A stretch of 64,000 nt of DNA from Achromobacter sp. UMC71 (lineage in GTDB: Bacteria > Pseudomonadota > Gammaproteobacteria > Burkholderiales > Burkholderiaceae_B): the NCBI RefSeq assembly GCF_014170305.1, contig NZ_LZZT01000006.1, forward strand, positions 62,001 to 126,000, given 5' to 3'. Of this stretch, positions 8,308 through 52,006 are shown one piece after another (position 1 is the stretch's first letter; every line of letters starts with the position of its first letter). The notes under the pieces are model-generated. The model was given only the letters and a program-made list of their open reading frames with translations. It had not been told where the DNA came from and ran no database searches. A program made the position numbers and the translations under genes.

Positions 8308-12419
<4,112 letters not shown>

Positions 12420-39432: not shown

Positions 39433-39448
39433 TGTTTCACGTGAAACA
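39433..39448. promoter_or_regulatory. parS site 1, perfect
   Basis: TGTTTCACGTGAAACA, the exact palindromic ParB-binding consensus. Confidence 0.95.
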
Positions 39449-39558
39449 TGGTTCGGTGCAGCAATGACGTTCCGCAAGCTCCAGGTCCGTATGCAAAAGG
39501 CAACGGGACGGTGGCCCTACCCCGATGAATATGTCGGCATTTGCCGCTGTCGAGTGGA

Positions 39559-39574
39559 TGTTTCACGTGGAACA
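39559..39574 (+). promoter_or_regulatory. parS site 2
   Basis: TGTTTCACGTGGAACA, one base from the palindromic consensus, a common functional variant. Confidence 0.92.
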
Positions 39575-39603
39575 TGCGCGACCATCCCTTCTTGGCATTT
39601 GCA

Positions 39604-39619
39604 TGTTTCACGTGAAACA
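39604..39619. promoter_or_regulatory. parS site 3, perfect
   Basis: TGTTTCACGTGAAACA, exact ParB-binding consensus. Confidence 0.95.
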
Positions 39620-39783
39620 TGCAAACGAACTGTGAGATTGGTGTATCCGAGAGAACGTCCATACCCCTCTCTTATCCCGTTTCTGTCCAATACCGTTCAC
39701 AGACTACCGGCAGACATAGCCGATCTGTGACGACATCACTTACTGGAGGCTCGGCGGACTCCTCGGCGTGTAGGGGACTGCAA

Positions 39784-39799
39784 TGTTTCACGTGAAACA
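39784..39799. promoter_or_regulatory. parS site 4, perfect
   Basis: TGTTTCACGTGAAACA, exact ParB-binding consensus. Confidence 0.95.
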
Positions 39800-39826
39800 T
39801 CGGTCTGGAGACCTGCGGATATGTGA

Positions 39827-39842
39827 ATGTCCACGTGAAACA
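39827..39842. promoter_or_regulatory. degenerate parS half-site
   Basis: Only the right half, CACGTGAAACA, is intact; the left arm lacks one T. Probably weak. Confidence 0.4.
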
Positions 39843-39929
39843 TATGCCTATGCGAATGCTGGCAATAGGCGCCCTGCTTTCGGTACGACACCACCCCTCT
39901 GGATTTGTGGCTTGTCTCACGGCATCTGA

Positions 39930-39945
39930 TGTTTCACGTGGAACA
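39930..39945 (+). promoter_or_regulatory. parS site 5
   Basis: TGTTTCACGTGGAACA, one base from consensus. Confidence 0.92.
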
Positions 39946-40002
39946 TCTCTGTGGAGACAGCTATCACGGTCTCAAATACCTCTTCGATCGATGCCGAACT
40001 CA

Positions 40003-40018
40003 TGTTTCACGTGGAACA
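40003..40018 (+). promoter_or_regulatory. parS site 6
   Basis: TGTTTCACGTGGAACA, one base from consensus. Confidence 0.92.
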
Positions 40019-40194
40019 TATCGATCGAGCGTACCCCGACATGACAGACCGAACGGCATTCTGATTCCCTACTTGCCTTGATCTAAGCACGACATAGCGG
40101 TGCTGCGAGCGGCGGATGGTTCTTCCACAACCAACATAAAAACAACTTTTCAGCACCCTACCCTACCCCTTACCCAAAAAAAACGAAATTTGTT

Positions 40195-40210
40195 GGTTTC
40201 ACGTGAAACG
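40195..40210. promoter_or_regulatory. near-consensus parS
   Basis: GGTTTCACGTGAAACG: the inner 14 bases are a perfect palindrome and only the two outermost bases differ from consensus. Confidence 0.6.
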
Positions 40211-40588
40211 TCGGTGCTGCCAATTCGAACCATCTCGTCCAATTCACGAAAAAATCACGATCCTCACGGAAGTTTGCAGCGAGCGAGCCGTCGGATTGAA
40301 TGTCTCCGGTCATTCGGTTGAAACATATAGCCCGCGACACCCAGCCTCCTAGACCCGCTCCATCCATCAGGAATATGGCGAGACGCGCGCATGGAGAGAG
40401 TGCCATTTCAATGCGTCCCCGCAATTCGCCGGCTACCCCTAACGCGAGAGCATTCCAACGGGCACCAAAATCCCGGCATTCTGCCAGCAGTAACTGCATC
40501 CCATCGCGCCGCACCGCCGAACACCTCGGATCCGAACACATCGATTTATCAACAACCTCAGCCGCAACCCCGGGGCGCGTGGAGAGTC

Positions 40589-40604
40589 CGTTTCACGTGG
40601 AACA
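40589..40604 (+). promoter_or_regulatory. near-consensus parS
   Basis: CGTTTCACGTGGAACA, two bases from the palindromic consensus; it lies next to a DnaA-like motif at 40609-40617. Confidence 0.6.
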
Positions 40605-40845
40605 ACTTTGGGGATAACTTGAAGGACAGCAAGCCAGACGCTGGCGAAAACACCTTTGCTTCCGCACGTTCAAGAGCGGGTGAAGCCAATTACCCAGATT
40701 CAGGAAAATGCCCAAATTGGCAACGTCTACATAGAGAAATCAGGATCGGACGGCGTGACATGCCAGTCCTGGGATGCGCGCCGTCGGCCCGGCGTCGCGA
40801 CCGCAACCGAACGAACTCCAGCAGTCGAACATCGGTGGAAAAAAG

Positions 40846-40854
40846 TGTGGATAA
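40846..40854 (-). promoter_or_regulatory. DnaA box, perfect
   Basis: TTATCCACA on the minus strand, the strict consensus for DnaA binding. Confidence 0.75.
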
Positions 40855-41176
40855 GTCGCCGCTATCGATTCAATAAGCTTTCTTAAAGCTGGATTCGGCC
40901 GTCACTGAAATCATCCGCCCGCGCCTCCGGCGCATATCTCTAGAAATCACGGATGCAACGCCCACCCCTGGGAACTTCGATGTGATCAAAAAGTCCAATC
41001 GCGGCTTAATTGCCAGCTCAAGTGGACGCGGCACTTATCCCCAAGGTTATCCAGGTCGAGATCACGTCCGCCCCTTGTGCACAAGTCGCCGCGAACCGTT
41101 TGATCCAACAATCATCTTGCCTGCCCCACAAAGCCAACGCCATCATCCTTTTGGCGGAGTCGACGCGTACAAAGGT

Positions 41177-41185
41177 TGTGGAAAA
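41177..41185 (-). promoter_or_regulatory. DnaA box
   Basis: TTTTCCACA on the minus strand, matching TTWTNCACA. Weaker neighbours are TTATCCCCA at 41035-41043 (plus) and at 40609-40617 (minus), and CTATCCACA at 41320-41328 (plus). Confidence 0.6.
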
Positions 41186-41215
41186 GTCGCGGAGTCCAAA
41201 TCTTGCGAGAATCTC

Positions 41216-41231
41216 GCTTTCACGTGAAATC
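41216..41231. promoter_or_regulatory. weak parS-like site
   Basis: Core TTTCACGTGAAA is intact, but both outer arms diverge from consensus. Confidence 0.3.
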
Positions 41232-41367
41232 GACAATGGCCGCATCATGGCCTCAGCGGCCGGGAATGGAAGACGTTTGAAAGCGCAACCAGAGCCATCC
41301 CGGATGGCTTTCCCCATTTCTATCCACAGGTTGAGCACCCTCCATTCGAACATTCAAGGCGTAATTC

Positions 41368-41376
41368 TGTGCATAA
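41368..41376 (-). promoter_or_regulatory. DnaA box
   Basis: TTATGCACA on the minus strand, matching TTWTNCACA. Confidence 0.6.
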
Positions 41377-41687
41377 CCGGGATGGGGATATCTTTGTGAA
41401 CAACCGCGTCCCCGACGCGCTGAAAAGTACTCAGCGTCTGGAGAAAATCGCATAAGAATCTCCAGCGACGGCAAGAAAACTGGCCAGCCGAAATGACGTA
41501 ACCACATGGTTTCCCTAGGGAAAAGCCATGTTTTTCATGAAACACCAGGTCGTCAGCCTGCCGCCAGCGACGGCAAGCCAAACGCCGTGAATTCGATTCC
41601 GAACGCATCGAAAAATGTGCAAAACCGGGATTTCAAAACCAAGGTTGCTTCATTACTGAGCAACCAGATACACATGCCCAAAAATAA

Positions 41688-41696
41688 TTATCCACA
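41688..41696 (+). promoter_or_regulatory. DnaA box, perfect, beside an AT-rich stretch
   Basis: TTATCCACA on the plus strand, followed by TTATCCAAG (41700-41708) and by the inverted repeat GTTAGT-AATC-ACTAAC (41721-41736). Confidence 0.75.
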
Positions 41697-41780
41697 AACT
41701 TATCCAAGGTTAGAGGATATGTTAGTAATCACTAACTTTGGGTAATCGGTGGAAGAAAATCGTCGCCTGGCCGGAATGAA

Positions 41781-46863: not shown

Positions 46864-47862
46864 TTATTTCTTGACCAGGCCGAAGGTGTCGGCCAGTTCG
46901 GCGTATTGCTTGACCTGCAGCTTCACGTACTCGTCCAGCTCGGCGCCCATCTTGTTAAAGGGAAACAGCCCCTGCTGTTCGCGCAGCTTGGCGAACTCGG
47001 GCGCGTCGGTAACGCGCTTGAACGCCGTGACCCAGAACTGGTAGTCGGCGTCGGATACCTTCGGCCCCACATAGAAGCCGCGGATGATGGGCCAGACGAT
47101 GTCGTAGCCCTGTTCCTTGGCGGTGGGCACGGTGCCCAGCTTGCCCGGCAGGCGCTGGTCGTTGAACACCGCCAGCACGCGAATCGGCGCACCGCCTTCC
47201 AGCATGGTGAAGGCTTCGGCGGCGTCGCCCATGTAGGCCTGGATATGGCCGCCGCGCAGCGCCGTGACAGCCTCGCCGCCACCTTCAAAGGCCACGAACC
47301 GCATCTTCTTGAAATCCACGCCGGCCGCCTTGGCGGTCAGCGCGGCCTTCATCCAGTCCTGGCTGCCCACGGTGCCGCCAGCGCCCAGCACGATCTTGGT
47401 CGGATCCTGCTTGAAGGCTTCCATCAGGCCCTTCAGATCGGTGTAGGGCGAGTCGTTGCGCACCACCGCCACGCCGTAGTCGGTGCCGATGGCAGCCAGC
47501 CAGCGCACGTCGTTGACGTTGTACTTGCCGAACTTGCCCTGCGCCAGGTTCAGCAGCGAACCGCCCGAGAAGGCCACGATGGTGCCGGGCTCGTTGGGGT
47601 GCTGCGCCACGATATTGTTGTAGGCCACCGCGCCGATGCCGCCAGGCATGTAGACGATGCGCATGGCGCTTTTAAGCGCGCCGCTTTGCTTCAAGCCTTC
47701 GGTGGCCAGGCGGCAGGTCAGGTCGAAGCCGCCGCCGGGCTGGGCCGGTGCGATGCATTCCGGGCGGCGCGGTTCGTCGGCGGCGTGGGCAGCGCCCAGG
47801 GACAGGGTGATCGCGCCCAGCGCCGCGACGGCGGCCAGGCGCAGCTTCAAGCTGGTCTGCAT
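46864..47862 (-). CDS. bctC: tripartite tricarboxylate transporter periplasmic binding protein
   Basis: 332 residues. A signal peptide (about 1-27, ending AHA) precedes a Bug/TctC fold with CIAPAQPGGGFDLTCRLA. RBS GGAG is upstream. In Bordetella pertussis BctC binds citrate and also signals to the BctE sensor; here the same two-component genes lie directly upstream, so a transport-plus-sensing role is expected. Confidence 0.93.
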   Translation of the reverse strand: MQTSLKLRLAAVAALGAITLSLGAAHAADEPRRPECIAPAQPGGGFDLTCRLATEGLKQSGALKSAMRIVYMPGGIGAVAYNNIVAQHPNEPGTIVAFSGGSLLNLAQGKFGKYNVNDVRWLAAIGTDYGVAVVRNDSPYTDLKGLMEAFKQDPTKIVLGAGGTVGSQDWMKAALTAKAAGVDFKKMRFVAFEGGGEAVTALRGGHIQAYMGDAAEAFTMLEGGAPIRVLAVFNDQRLPGKLGTVPTAKEQGYDIVWPIIRGFYVGPKVSDADYQFWVTAFKRVTDAPEFAKLREQQGLFPFNKMGAELDEYVKLQVKQYAELADTFGLVKK

Positions 47863-47973: not shown

Positions 47974-49458
47974 TCAAAAATTGCCATTTTCCTGATGCGC
48001 CGCAACATTGGCGGCCGATTCCAGGGAAAACACCAGGGATGCGCGCAAGCCGGGCAACGGAGCGCGGTTCTCCAGCACCAGGCGGGCCCCCAGGACCTCG
48101 GCGATGGTGCCGACGATAGCCAGCCCCAGGCCGGCGCCCGGCTTGTTCTTGCCCGCGGCGCCGCGTCGAAAGCGCACGCCGGCGCGGGCAATGTCCTCGG
48201 CTGACATGCCAGGGCCGCTGTCTTCCACGGCCAGGCGGGCCTGGTTGCCTTGCCGGGTGACCGACACGGTGACCACGCCGCCGGGCGAGGTGTAGCGGAT
48301 GGCGTTGTCGACCAGATTGCCGACCGCCTCGCGTAGCAGCCAGTCGGCGCCGTCGACCGTGACCGGCCCTTGCTCGGCCTCCAGGCCGATGTCCAGCTGA
48401 CGGGCCCGGGCGGTGGGCAACAGGTTGCGGATCACCCCGTCCGCCAGTTCGGCCAGGTCGACCGGTTCCGGGACGAAACCGCCTTCGGCCACGGAAGCGT
48501 CCTTGGCGCGCGCCAGCGCCAGCATCTGGTTGGTGGTGCGTACCGCCCTGTCCAGGCCCTCCTGCATCGCCAGAAGGGCTGTACGGACCTCCTGGGGGCA
48601 TGTTTCGCGCAAGGCATAGGCGGTTTGCGTCCGCAAGACCGACAACGGCGTGCGCAATTGGTGCGAGGCATCGTCCAGGAACTGGCTCTGGACCCTCGCC
48701 TGGGCCGCGTAGCGGGCCATGTGGAGGTTTACGGCGCCGACCAGGGGTAGGACCTCACCTGGCAGGTCGGACGCGCTGACGGGGCTTAAATCGTCTGCAG
48801 GACGCCTTTCCAGGTCCTGCCGCAACCGGGCCAGGGGACGCAGGGCCATGAAAACGCCCAGGACGATCACCAAAACGCTGATGAGAATCACGGCCAGGTC
48901 GCGCTCGACCGAACGCACCAGGACCTGGTGCAGGAACGCCTGGCGGCTTTCCAGCCCTTCGGCGACTTGAACTATAACCCGTCCCCCTTTATTCGCGTAC
49001 AGCGGCGGGTCCATCGTCCGCGCCAGGGCGGCGACCCTTACCGGGGCACCCAGGTAGGTCGCGTAGAAAAACTGCGGTTCGCCAGAAACCAGGGGCTGGG
49101 TCGGCATGGGTAGCCCGGGATGGCCGATTTCGGCCAGCCCGTCTTCGGTCGCTACCCGGTAGAACACGCTGCCATTGGCCGTCAGCTCGAAAAATTCCAG
49201 CATCAGGTACGGCTGCTCCATGGCTAATCCACCGCTGGCTGTGGATATGTTGTGGTCGATCGCGCGCAGCGCGCCGGCGAGCGACCGGTCATAGGCAATG
49301 TCGACCTGGTTGCGCAACTGGTGGTTCGACAGCCACAACGCGCCCATCATCACCAGGACCAAAGTCGGAATCAGCCACCACAGCAGCTGGGTTTTCAGGG
49401 TGCGGGTGCGGTTTTTTTTCCCGGAAATCGCCCTTTTTTTTGGAAAACTAGTTGTCAA
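47974..49458 (-). CDS. bctE: sensor histidine kinase of the tricarboxylate transporter
   Basis: 494 residues if started at the TTG at 49458, which lies inside the end of the regulator gene and has GGAG seven bases upstream; no nearby ATG fits. Two transmembrane helices (about residues 24-44 and 190-210) bound a periplasmic sensor domain, then a HAMP-like region, the H-box SHQLRTPLSVLR with His266, N-box NLVDNAIRYTS and G-boxes DSGPGM and GAGLGLAIV. It phosphorylates the adjacent regulator. In Bordetella, BctE interacts with substrate-loaded BctC. Confidence 0.93.
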   Translation of the reverse strand: MTTSFPKKRAISGKKNRTRTLKTQLLWWLIPTLVLVMMGALWLSNHQLRNQVDIAYDRSLAGALRAIDHNISTASGGLAMEQPYLMLEFFELTANGSVFYRVATEDGLAEIGHPGLPMPTQPLVSGEPQFFYATYLGAPVRVAALARTMDPPLYANKGGRVIVQVAEGLESRQAFLHQVLVRSVERDLAVILISVLVIVLGVFMALRPLARLRQDLERRPADDLSPVSASDLPGEVLPLVGAVNLHMARYAAQARVQSQFLDDASHQLRTPLSVLRTQTAYALRETCPQEVRTALLAMQEGLDRAVRTTNQMLALARAKDASVAEGGFVPEPVDLAELADGVIRNLLPTARARQLDIGLEAEQGPVTVDGADWLLREAVGNLVDNAIRYTSPGGVVTVSVTRQGNQARLAVEDSGPGMSAEDIARAGVRFRRGAAGKNKPGAGLGLAIVGTIAEVLGARLVLENRAPLPGLRASLVFSLESAANVAAHQENGNF

Positions 49459-50125
49459 CAGCGTTCTCCAGGCAGTAGCCCATGCCTCGCATGGTCGTGA
49501 TCTGCACGCCTGTTTCCGTCAATTTTTTGCGCAACCTGTGCACAAGTACTTCGATGGCTTCGAGGTTGATGTCGGCATCGTCGGTCACGATGCGATCGAG
49601 GATCTGCTGCTTGTTGATGGGTTCGCCGCTTTTCTGGATCAGTACTCGCAAGACCGAATGTTCACGTGGGGATAACTGCAAAGGCTGTCCGGAGACCGTG
49701 AATTTTTGCGCGGAAGTTTCGAAAACCAGGTTTCCCAGGGTCAGCCGCGGATGTTCGCGGCCACGGCTGCGTCGCACGAGCGCGATCAAACGCGCTTCCA
49801 ACTCTTCCACAACAAAGGGTTTCGGCAGGAAATCGTCCGCCCCTTGGTGAAGCGTCCCGATTTTTTCGGCCAGTGAATCGCGCGCGGTCAAGACCAGCAC
49901 CGGCGTACGGTCGTCCCGCGCGCGAATCTTCGCCAGCAAAGTATGGCCATCCATGCCCGGCAGTCCCAAGTCGAGCACGACGGCATCGAATTCTTCGACG
50001 GCCAGTCTTCTTTCGGCAACCAGTCCGTCATCCGCCCACTCCACCACGAAGCCCGCATGTCGGGCCAGGCTTCTGGCCAACCAGCGAGCAAGTTCAGCTT
50101 CGTCTTCTATCAGGAGGATGCGCAT
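49448..50125 (-). CDS. bctD: OmpR-family response regulator of the tricarboxylate transporter
   Basis: 225 residues. The receiver domain has the phospho-acceptor Asp52 in VVLDLGLPGMDG and the lysine in FLPKPF. A winged-helix DNA-binding domain fills residues about 125-220 with VLVHRLRKKLTETGV. It should activate bctCBA. Its start faces the putative origin region at 50126-50617. Confidence 0.95.
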   Translation of the reverse strand: MRILLIEDEAELARWLARSLARHAGFVVEWADDGLVAERRLAVEEFDAVVLDLGLPGMDGHTLLAKIRARDDRTPVLVLTARDSLAEKIGTLHQGADDFLPKPFVVEELEARLIALVRRSRGREHPRLTLGNLVFETSAQKFTVSGQPLQLSPREHSVLRVLIQKSGEPINKQQILDRIVTDDADINLEAIEVLVHRLRKKLTETGVQITTMRGMGYCLENAVDN

Positions 50126-50170
50126 GGACGGAGTCCGGGGGGGCGTGGCTGGGAGCTAGGAGAAAGCATG

Positions 50171-50220
50171 TTTGTCTTTTCCCTGTATTTCTCTTTATAT
50201 AAAGACTAATGATTAATAAG
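50171..50220. other. AT-rich stretch, possible DNA-unwinding element
   Basis: Only 12 of 50 bases are G or C, in a genome of roughly two-thirds G+C. It abuts a perfect DnaA box, as DNA-unwinding elements do. Confidence 0.6.
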
Positions 50221-50234
50221 GCCTGTGGATAACT
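50219..50234 (-). repeat. left arm of a 16-bp inverted repeat with DnaA box
   Basis: AGGCCTGTGGATAACT; the DnaA box TTATCCACA is on the minus strand at 50224-50232. The exact inverse copy is at 50403-50418, 168 bases away. Confidence 0.85.
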
Positions 50235-50402
50235 ACCTTAACCTTGGAAACCTGTTCTTTTTCATGAGCTTGCGAGCGTTTTTGGCTGTGCAAGAACTCT
50301 GTGTGGGAAAAAAGCCGAAGTTGGACAAGATTTCGGGCGAGGTCCAAAACCCCTGCTTGTTCAACTTGCCTCCACACAATGTGCACAACCTGCCGCCTTA
50401 GG

Positions 50403-50418
50403 AGTTATCCACAGGCCT
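50403..50418 (+). repeat. right arm of a 16-bp inverted repeat with DnaA box
   Basis: AGTTATCCACAGGCCT; the DnaA box TTATCCACA is on the plus strand at 50405-50413. It is a perfect reverse complement of 50219-50234. Confidence 0.85.
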
Positions 50419-50617
50419 CTTTCTGGAGACGAGGGTAGGAAGCGGCACTTTTACCCCGAAAAACAGCCCGTTGCCTACCCTGGTTTTCGCCCCTTTCCAG
50501 CCCTTTAAAGGCCCCTGGATGCGCCTCGAAAATCGGCCCCGCGAGGGGTGGAGTCCCTGCTCCGGTTGACGTTCTGCTGAACAAAAAATGAGCAGCTTTC
50601 CGCCGTAGAATCCGGCC

Positions 50618-52006
50618 ATGGCACGACAAATCCGAATCAAGAAACCGGCTTGGGCGACCTGGCTGAGAGGCCGTTTGCTCGCCGACAATTTGCCCGCGAC
50701 GCTGTGCGCCGCGGCCCTGATGGGACTGGCCGGCGCGCTGGCCACGGTGATATTTCGCGAACTGCTGGGCGCAATCCAGATGTTGCTGGGCGGGGCCGAC
50801 GAACCGCACGGCATGGTGTCGCTGGCGCGTGGCCTGGCGCCTTGGGAGCGATTCCTGCTACCCGCCGTGGGCGGGGCGATCGCTGGCGTGATCCTGCAAT
50901 GGGCCGCCGCGCGCCTACCTCGGCGCGGCGCGGCCGACTATATGGAAGCGATCTCTATCGGACGAGGCGTGATCGGCTTCCGGCAGACCGTGGCGCGCAG
51001 TATTTCTTCTTTGTTTTCAATTGGTTCGGGGGCGTCGATCGGTCGCGAAGGCCCGATGGTGCAGCTGGCGGCGATGTTCTCGTCGTTGTCGGGGCGCTAC
51101 CTGGTGTTGCCCCCTCGTCATCTGCGCCTGCTGGTGGCCTGCGGCGCCACGGCGGGGATCACCGCGGCCTACAACGCGCCGATTGCCGGCGCGCTGTTCA
51201 TTTCCGAAATCGTCTACGGCGCCATTTCGTCGGCCACGCTGGTGCCGCTGGTGGTGTCTTCGGTGGTGGCCAATATCGTCACGCGCCAGATCCTGCACTA
51301 CGACGCGGTGTTCCACATGCCGCCGTTTGAGTTCGTATCCGGTTGGGAAGTCGTCAATTACTTGGGGCTGGGGTTGATCGCCGGCCTGGTCGCGCCGCAA
51401 TTCCTGCGATTCCTGGACACGTCAAAAGCGCTGTTTCGGCGCATGCCGCTGCCGTTGTGGGCCAGGATGGCGGCCGGCGGCATAGTGGTGGGCGCCTTGT
51501 CGGTGTTCAAGCCCGAGGTCTGGGGCAACGGCTACAGCGTGGTCAACAGCATGCTGCACAGTGAATGGGCCTGGCAGGCCGTCGCGGCGGTCTTGTTGTT
51601 CAAGATCGTGGCGACTGGCGCCAGCGTGGGCTCGGGTGCGATTGGCGGCGTCTTCACGCCTACGCTGTTCGTGGGGGCCGCGGTGGGCGCCCTATACGGT
51701 TCTGGCCTGCACGCCCTGTTCCCCGCGGGTGATCTGTCGGCGGTGTCGAGCTACGCCGTGGTGGGCATGGGGGCGCTACTGGCCGCCACAACCTATGCGC
51801 CGCTCATGTCGATCTTGATGATCTTCGAGATGACGTTGAGCTATGAAGTGATGCTGCCATTGATGCTGGCCTGCATTACCGGCTTTGTCATTGCGCAGCG
51901 TATCCGGCCGGATTCGGTCTATGCCAAGTCGCTGGCGAGCAATCGGATTGCGCGGGAAAATGTGCGGTCCGGGCCTGTGTTGTCGCCAAGTAAAATAAGT
52001 GAGTAA
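50618..52006 (+). CDS. ClC-family chloride channel/transporter
   Basis: 462 residues with about 10-12 hydrophobic helices. The selectivity and gating motifs are GSGASIGREGP near residue 137, with the gating Glu in GREGP, and GSGAIGGVFTPTLF near residue 340. It moves chloride, or Cl-/H+ in exchange. No CBS domains follow. It is transcribed away from the putative origin and ends at a strong terminator. Confidence 0.93.
   Translation: MARQIRIKKPAWATWLRGRLLADNLPATLCAAALMGLAGALATVIFRELLGAIQMLLGGADEPHGMVSLARGLAPWERFLLPAVGGAIAGVILQWAAARLPRRGAADYMEAISIGRGVIGFRQTVARSISSLFSIGSGASIGREGPMVQLAAMFSSLSGRYLVLPPRHLRLLVACGATAGITAAYNAPIAGALFISEIVYGAISSATLVPLVVSSVVANIVTRQILHYDAVFHMPPFEFVSGWEVVNYLGLGLIAGLVAPQFLRFLDTSKALFRRMPLPLWARMAAGGIVVGALSVFKPEVWGNGYSVVNSMLHSEWAWQAVAAVLLFKIVATGASVGSGAIGGVFTPTLFVGAAVGALYGSGLHALFPAGDLSAVSSYAVVGMGALLAATTYAPLMSILMIFEMTLSYEVMLPLMLACITGFVIAQRIRPDSVYAKSLASNRIARENVRSGPVLSPSKISE

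Follow-up and report, generated by a model that had tools for sequence, protein, structure and literature searches.

Where does the chromosome of Achromobacter sp. UMC71 begin to replicate? The usual guess for origins in this group is a site beside mnmG or dnaA. The DNA analysed here, referred to as the window, is a 64,000-nucleotide stretch (bases 62001–126000 of the 171-kb contig C6 in the 60-contig, 6.34-Mb draft genome G000), in which a preliminary description had pointed to the gene-free segment 50126–50617 as a candidate origin away from both genes. A conserved inverted pair of DnaA boxes and a nearby switch in strand composition support that proposal, and the sequence indicates that positions 50162–50418, hereafter the module, are very probably the chromosomal replication origin (oriC), built like that of E. 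coli.

The anatomy of the module can be read directly from the DNA (Table 1). A 50-bp block of 24% GC (50168–50217), compared with 63.6% window-wide, adjoins a perfect DnaA box (R1, at 50224), and exact 16-bp arms at 50219–50234 and 50403–50418, each with TTATCCACA, form an inverted repeat; the preliminary description had both features right. Only one 50-bp stretch of the window is lower in GC content than this block, which keeps its place directly beside the strong box across genera. ParS-site repeats aside, the arms are the window's only exact inverted repeat of at least 16 bp within 500 bp. Dinucleotide shuffles of the window gave an inverted pair of perfect boxes within 300 bp in 0 of 200 cases and a 50-bp block of at most 24% GC beside a perfect box in 0 of 200, and perfect boxes number eight in the window against a mean of 0.155 per shuffle (n = 200). 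Further weaker boxes had also been described between the arms; one site with a single mismatch to TTATNCACA is indeed present (50380–50388), but the remaining four have two mismatches and partly overlap. CACAG occurs four times in the region, where the window mean predicts 0.5, and the 7-mer CTGTGCA once.

The closest comparison is E. coli oriC (MG1655, NC_000913.3, annotated at 3925744–3925975; locus L070), described in PMC5742627 as a 245-bp origin with a duplex-unwinding element, a DnaA-oligomerization region and a single IHF site. In both origins R1 (−) and R4 (+) are inverted and about 180 bp apart (180 bp in E. coli, 181 bp here), and an AT-rich element lies outside R1. The IHF-type site just inside R1 and the weak boxes in between have candidate counterparts here; the E. 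coli R4 box lies a few bases past the annotated end of oriC. They differ in that the IHF-type site of E. coli is at +28 from the start of R1, whereas the IHF-like site here is at +37, and in that oriC adjoins mnmG in E. coli, whereas the module is adjacent to neither mnmG (∼10 kb away) nor dnaA (29 kb).

Conservation of the inverted repeat in relatives, a check that the preliminary description had proposed, was examined at several levels. When 250 family genomes were searched at the DNA level, the 492-bp region was matched in 82, representing 13 of 43 genera. Matches in other genera were confined to 50139–50426, typically 50162–50418, and in several of these genera covered little beyond 50196–50232, which comprises R1 and some of the AT block. 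The boxes are 181 bp apart in the 30 loci that this search returned. For alignment, 56 modules were picked by rule (spacing 176–184 bp, at most one mismatch) and five were removed by hand; in the 51 aligned modules R1 and R4 are separated by 181 bp in 45, 180 bp in three, 179 bp in two, and 178 bp in one. The motif TCANNNNNTTR is present in 48 of the 51, in 47 at one fixed offset and in one shifted by one base. Of the 268 family genomes, 156 have the exact inverted pair at 175–183 bp; they represent 32 of 43 genera and include 41 of the 43 genomes of the window's genus, the other two being 78% and 57% complete. None of the 268 has the reversed box-pair pattern at the same spacing. Spacing controls covered 91 genomes and, in each control, 31 other spacings; they gave matches in 1/91 at 184–214 bp and 8/91 at 144–174 bp, compared with 53/91 at the true spacing; the last number was counted by hand from the family census, and at least one of the eight control matches shares a box with a counted module.

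A wider search for the R1–R4 pair yielded at least 120 stretches. The 80 that were examined include Pseudomonas, enterobacteria, Actinobacteria, and others; many lie beside dnaA or mnmG, and some are without an AT-rich flank. Among the matches listed, the pair at 180–182 bp, with 60–70% AT beside R1, occurs on four Burkholderia, one Ralstonia, and two Caballeronia contigs. Within the family, one member (L051, genome G092) has an R4 box with one mismatch (TTATCCATA) and was hence missed by the exact pattern. In a small relative (L099–L100, genome G107) two units of AT block and box face each other ∼0.5 kb apart, and no exact R1–R4 pair is present.

Strand composition provides evidence of a different kind. 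Local cumulative GC skew was followed over stretches of 100–180 kb in relatives, and fine skew within the window's genus comprised G000 and 40 kb of G230. The skew check suggested in the preliminary description placed the switch at or near the module and not at mnmG/parS or dnaA, with an exact fit in three genomes and a looser one in others. The minimum lies to the left of R1 by 595 bp in G036, 282 bp in G105, and 158 bp in G009, that is, within 0.6 kb. Genome G036 was also sampled along its 3.72-Mb contig in 49 stretches of 20 kb: skew is positive between 0 and 1.92 Mb and negative between 1.99 and 3.70 Mb, where one stretch is near zero, and it is positive again in the final 20-kb stretch, which contains the module, giving an origin-type switch there. 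KOPS-like polarity was considered and not used; the first 100 of 476 sites in G036 were all forward, and counts near the origin were mixed in the stretches analysed.

Table 1. Coordinates of the module, its parts, the parS-like cluster and the widely spaced module pairs of relatives (window positions unless a contig is given).
Feature	Position	Strand	Remarks
Conserved oriC core: unwinding element and DnaA-assembly region (probable)	50162–50418		Typical limits of cross-genus DNA matches (widest 50139–50426) and alignment
AT-rich duplex-unwinding element (predicted)	50168–50217		24% GC; ends in TTTATATAAAGACTAATGATTAAT adjoining the box; strongly conserved in cross-genus alignment
Left arm of exact 16-bp inverted repeat	50219–50234		R1 inside
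DnaA box R1, TTATCCACA	50224–50232	−	Perfect box
IHF-like site, TTCATGAGCTTG	50261–50272	+	37 bp from start of R1; relaxed motif TCANNNNNTTR
Weak DnaA box, TTGTGCACA	50380–50388	−	Within conserved TGTGCACA block
Right arm of inverted repeat	50403–50418		R4 inside
DnaA box R4, TTATCCACA	50405–50413	+	Perfect; opposite orientation to R1, 181 bp away
Eight parS-like sites upstream of mnmG	39433–40604		0–2 mismatches to the parS consensus; context, outside oriC
Advenella-like two-module genome (g40)	G115:C14:214936 and 282220		67 kb apart, one contig; L269–L274
Advenella-like two-module genome (g40)	G040:C4:90142 and 178607		88 kb apart, one contig; L275–L280
Advenella-like two-module genome (g40)	G165:C23:165276 and 238454		73 kb apart, one contig; L281–L285

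Several observations weigh against identifying the module as oriC. The exact pair was not found in 112 of the 268 family genomes, and in a sample of the order 14 of 399 genomes match, eight of them from the family, so that only six lie outside it. Five skew minima are loose: on contig C6 of G000 the minimum is at window position 47566, 2.7 kb from R1; it is displaced by ∼5 kb in G100 and by ∼14 kb, with weak skew, in G141; in G107, which has no exact pair, it is ∼7 kb off and on a plateau; and in G230, of the window's genus, R1 is at 19.9 kb, within a flat part of the curve that extends from ∼18 to 28 kb. The 13-mers of E. coli oriC are absent, and GATC occurs 0 times compared with 14 there, so that the many GATC sites of a Dam/SeqA-type system are missing; CACAG is frequent instead. 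Inside R1 only the relaxed motif TCANNNNNTTR is present; the strict IHF consensus is matched neither at 50261–50272 nor at the E. coli site, and the relaxed consensus was used.

Two further points of this kind come from the gap between mnmG and a cold-shock gene, cspA (∼39480–41760), which could itself be the origin, 50126–50617 then being merely a secondary DnaA-binding site. In the gap, eight boxes have no more than one mismatch, so that near-boxes are more numerous than in the module, and the stretch 41680–41729, with 26% GC and a perfect box, is another AT-rich box site. The gap also adjoins mnmG as in E. coli, holds eight parS-like sites, and includes two ∼95-bp blocks conserved in the genus. 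However, skew does not switch at the gap. Between parS and R1 it is −0.076 and −0.056 in G000, like the left arm, and the interval is similarly negative and left-arm-like in G036, G009, and G105; third-codon-position skew by gene strand agrees in the same four genomes, with few genes in the interval. A search with mnmG-side DNA gave matches in 32 of the 250 genomes, from 3 of the 43 genera, with only fragments outside the closest relatives, and the window has no R1–R4 pair besides the module. Because skew does not switch there and DNA conservation is narrow, an origin at mnmG/parS was rejected, and we consider it very improbable. The parS cluster may represent a centromere ∼10 kb from the origin, in a gap that also has DnaA-binding sites, perhaps regulatory ones. 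Measured from R1, the nearest parS is 9.6 kb away, the upstream end of the mnmG open reading frame 10.7 kb, and the dnaA domain 29.1 kb, and R4 is 12.6 kb from the mnmE open reading frame, in line with the earlier placement of the site about 9 kb from mnmG/parS and beyond mnmE from dnaA. An origin at dnaA was likewise rejected: C6:139000–143500 contains one box with at most one mismatch (perfect, at C6:140809), ∼29 kb from R1.

The boxes of the mnmG–cspA gap could alternatively add a layer of regulation, with the module at 50.2 kb unwinding and the gap serving as a second DnaA cluster, either a titration or a DnaA-reactivation site. Such a role is compatible with the oriC identity of the module. 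Perfect boxes do cluster around the module: the genome has 29 perfect TTATCCACA sites, of which 14 lie in the 64 kb around the origin (G000:C6:93043–156831), and the two box blocks of the gap are conserved in the genus. Their conservation is limited to three genera, however, and no sign of cooperation over 9 kb was seen, and we regard such added regulation as rather unlikely. The blocks themselves (41311–41408 and 41644–41740, ∼95 bp each with DnaA boxes, conserved mainly within the genus) are possible DnaA regulatory sites.

The module lies between a TctD-type response-regulator gene on the left (49448–50125, −) and a ClcB-type channel gene on the right (50618–52006, +), and both point away from it, as the preliminary description had stated. 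Among the matches listed, six Achromobacter contigs (L183, L193, L195, L196, L197, L204) have the same neighbouring genes at 82–97% protein identity. Such a position between divergent genes would also suit a promoter or regulatory region in which DnaA acted solely as a transcription regulator. That explanation is scarcely credible, because the module keeps its spacing where neither flanking gene has a homologue in the 19.5-kb stretch (L058, L060, L061, L064, and, as a box pair, L065) and sits close to the skew switch; in genome G544 of another family, moreover, it lies beside mnmC.

How the module would act as oriC can be outlined by analogy, since DnaA binding, IHF binding, unwinding, and helicase loading are inferred from work on E. 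coli. DnaA would occupy the strong boxes R1 and R4 at the borders of a 190-bp assembly region, and an IHF-type bend 37 bp inside R1 would aid DnaA in filling the intervening weak sites. The R1-side DnaA oligomer would then open and hold the adjoining AT-rich block, where helicase would load and from which two forks would depart. The R1 side also resembles the DnaA-trio basal unwinding system in having a DnaA box, a short GC spacer, and an AT-rich strand with two trio-like triplets as judged by eye. It differs in that at least three triplets are assumed in the account of that system in PMC8287927, whereas two fit here by eye, followed by departures.

The window's genome has one module; two exact box pairs are present in 23 of the 268 family genomes, from 11 genera. 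The copies are 0.4–3.6 kb apart in 20 of the 23 and 67–88 kb apart in three Advenella-like genomes (G115, G040, G165). By eye, the copies have the same orientation in 16 re-examined two-module genomes and likewise in G009, G100, G120, and G139. At L058, L059, L060, L061, L067, and L069 both copies keep the AT block, the R4 boxes of L067 having a mismatch.

In the three Advenella-like genomes one module lies beside metAT and mnmG and the other beyond dnaA. Skew drops to the first module, climbs over ∼15–30 kb, drops to the second, and climbs again, so that overall GC skew reverses sign at both modules with local minima at or near each. Third-position skew of plus-strand genes in five successive segments is −0.19, +0.02, −0.10, −0.17, and +0.05 in G115, −0.20, 0.00, −0.16, −0.15, and +0.32 in G040, and −0.20, −0.01, −0.17, −0.10, and +0.08 in G165, with the midpoints between segments set from the skew curve itself; in minus-strand genes it shifts the same way at the first module. 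The three genomes are not independent, because marker-gene order is common to all of them, and an inverted segment could also explain the double skew change. When ten g40 genomes were searched with module A, G115, G040, G165, and G198 gave at least two strong matches, five a short weak match, and one none. We tentatively suggest that the oriC module is a duplicable unit in the family and that both distant modules are active in the three Advenella-like genomes, a proposal we hold to be plausible but short of probable. The cited portion of Gao 2015 (PMC4403523) states that no bacterial chromosome had at that time been shown to use two functional origins.

A literature search, mostly at the level of titles and abstracts, turned up no named origin of Achromobacter, Bordetella, or Advenella. 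For chromosome 1 of B. cenocepacia, the passages cited from Du et al. 2016 (PMC4948915) give the precise origin position as uncertain and name another cluster of boxes, close to nucleotide 1 and the skew minimum, as possibly the true origin. That region shares DnaA boxes, an AT-rich block, CTGTGCA 7-mers, and ParABS with the one described here, and its IHF site has a candidate counterpart in the IHF-like site at 50261–50272; it differs in that its position was left uncertain, whereas one module is singled out here. Among the matches listed, Burkholderia contigs L154, L200, L208, and L214 carry the R1–R4 pair at 181 bp. The module of G544 (L286, family f31, 9773–9962), which has a GTAGTAGAAG stretch at its box, may be the counterpart of the origin of Burkholderia chromosome 1, whose position was left unsettled. 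On chromosome 1 of C. metallidurans CH34, the skew transition is placed in PMC2864759 ∼90 kb away from dnaA and adjoins 213 nt in which three perfect DnaA boxes occur; compared by this description, it is like the present case in having a skew transition far from dnaA next to perfect DnaA boxes, whereas the cited passages mention no R1–R4 geometry.

Taken together, the module very probably represents a known kind of origin, at a site that the dedicated 2016 Burkholderia study left uncertain. It provides an exact, testable origin for a group in which origins are usually guessed to lie at mnmG or dnaA. Many members of this betaproteobacterial family have kept the R1–R4 frame of the E. coli origin, but not its gene neighbourhood or its GATC sites. 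The R1–R4 geometry thereby becomes a search rule for origins, and this rule revealed the relatives with two modules, which bear on the question of whether two origins are ever used on one natural bacterial chromosome. If both distant modules are active, these would be natural bacterial chromosomes with two working origins.
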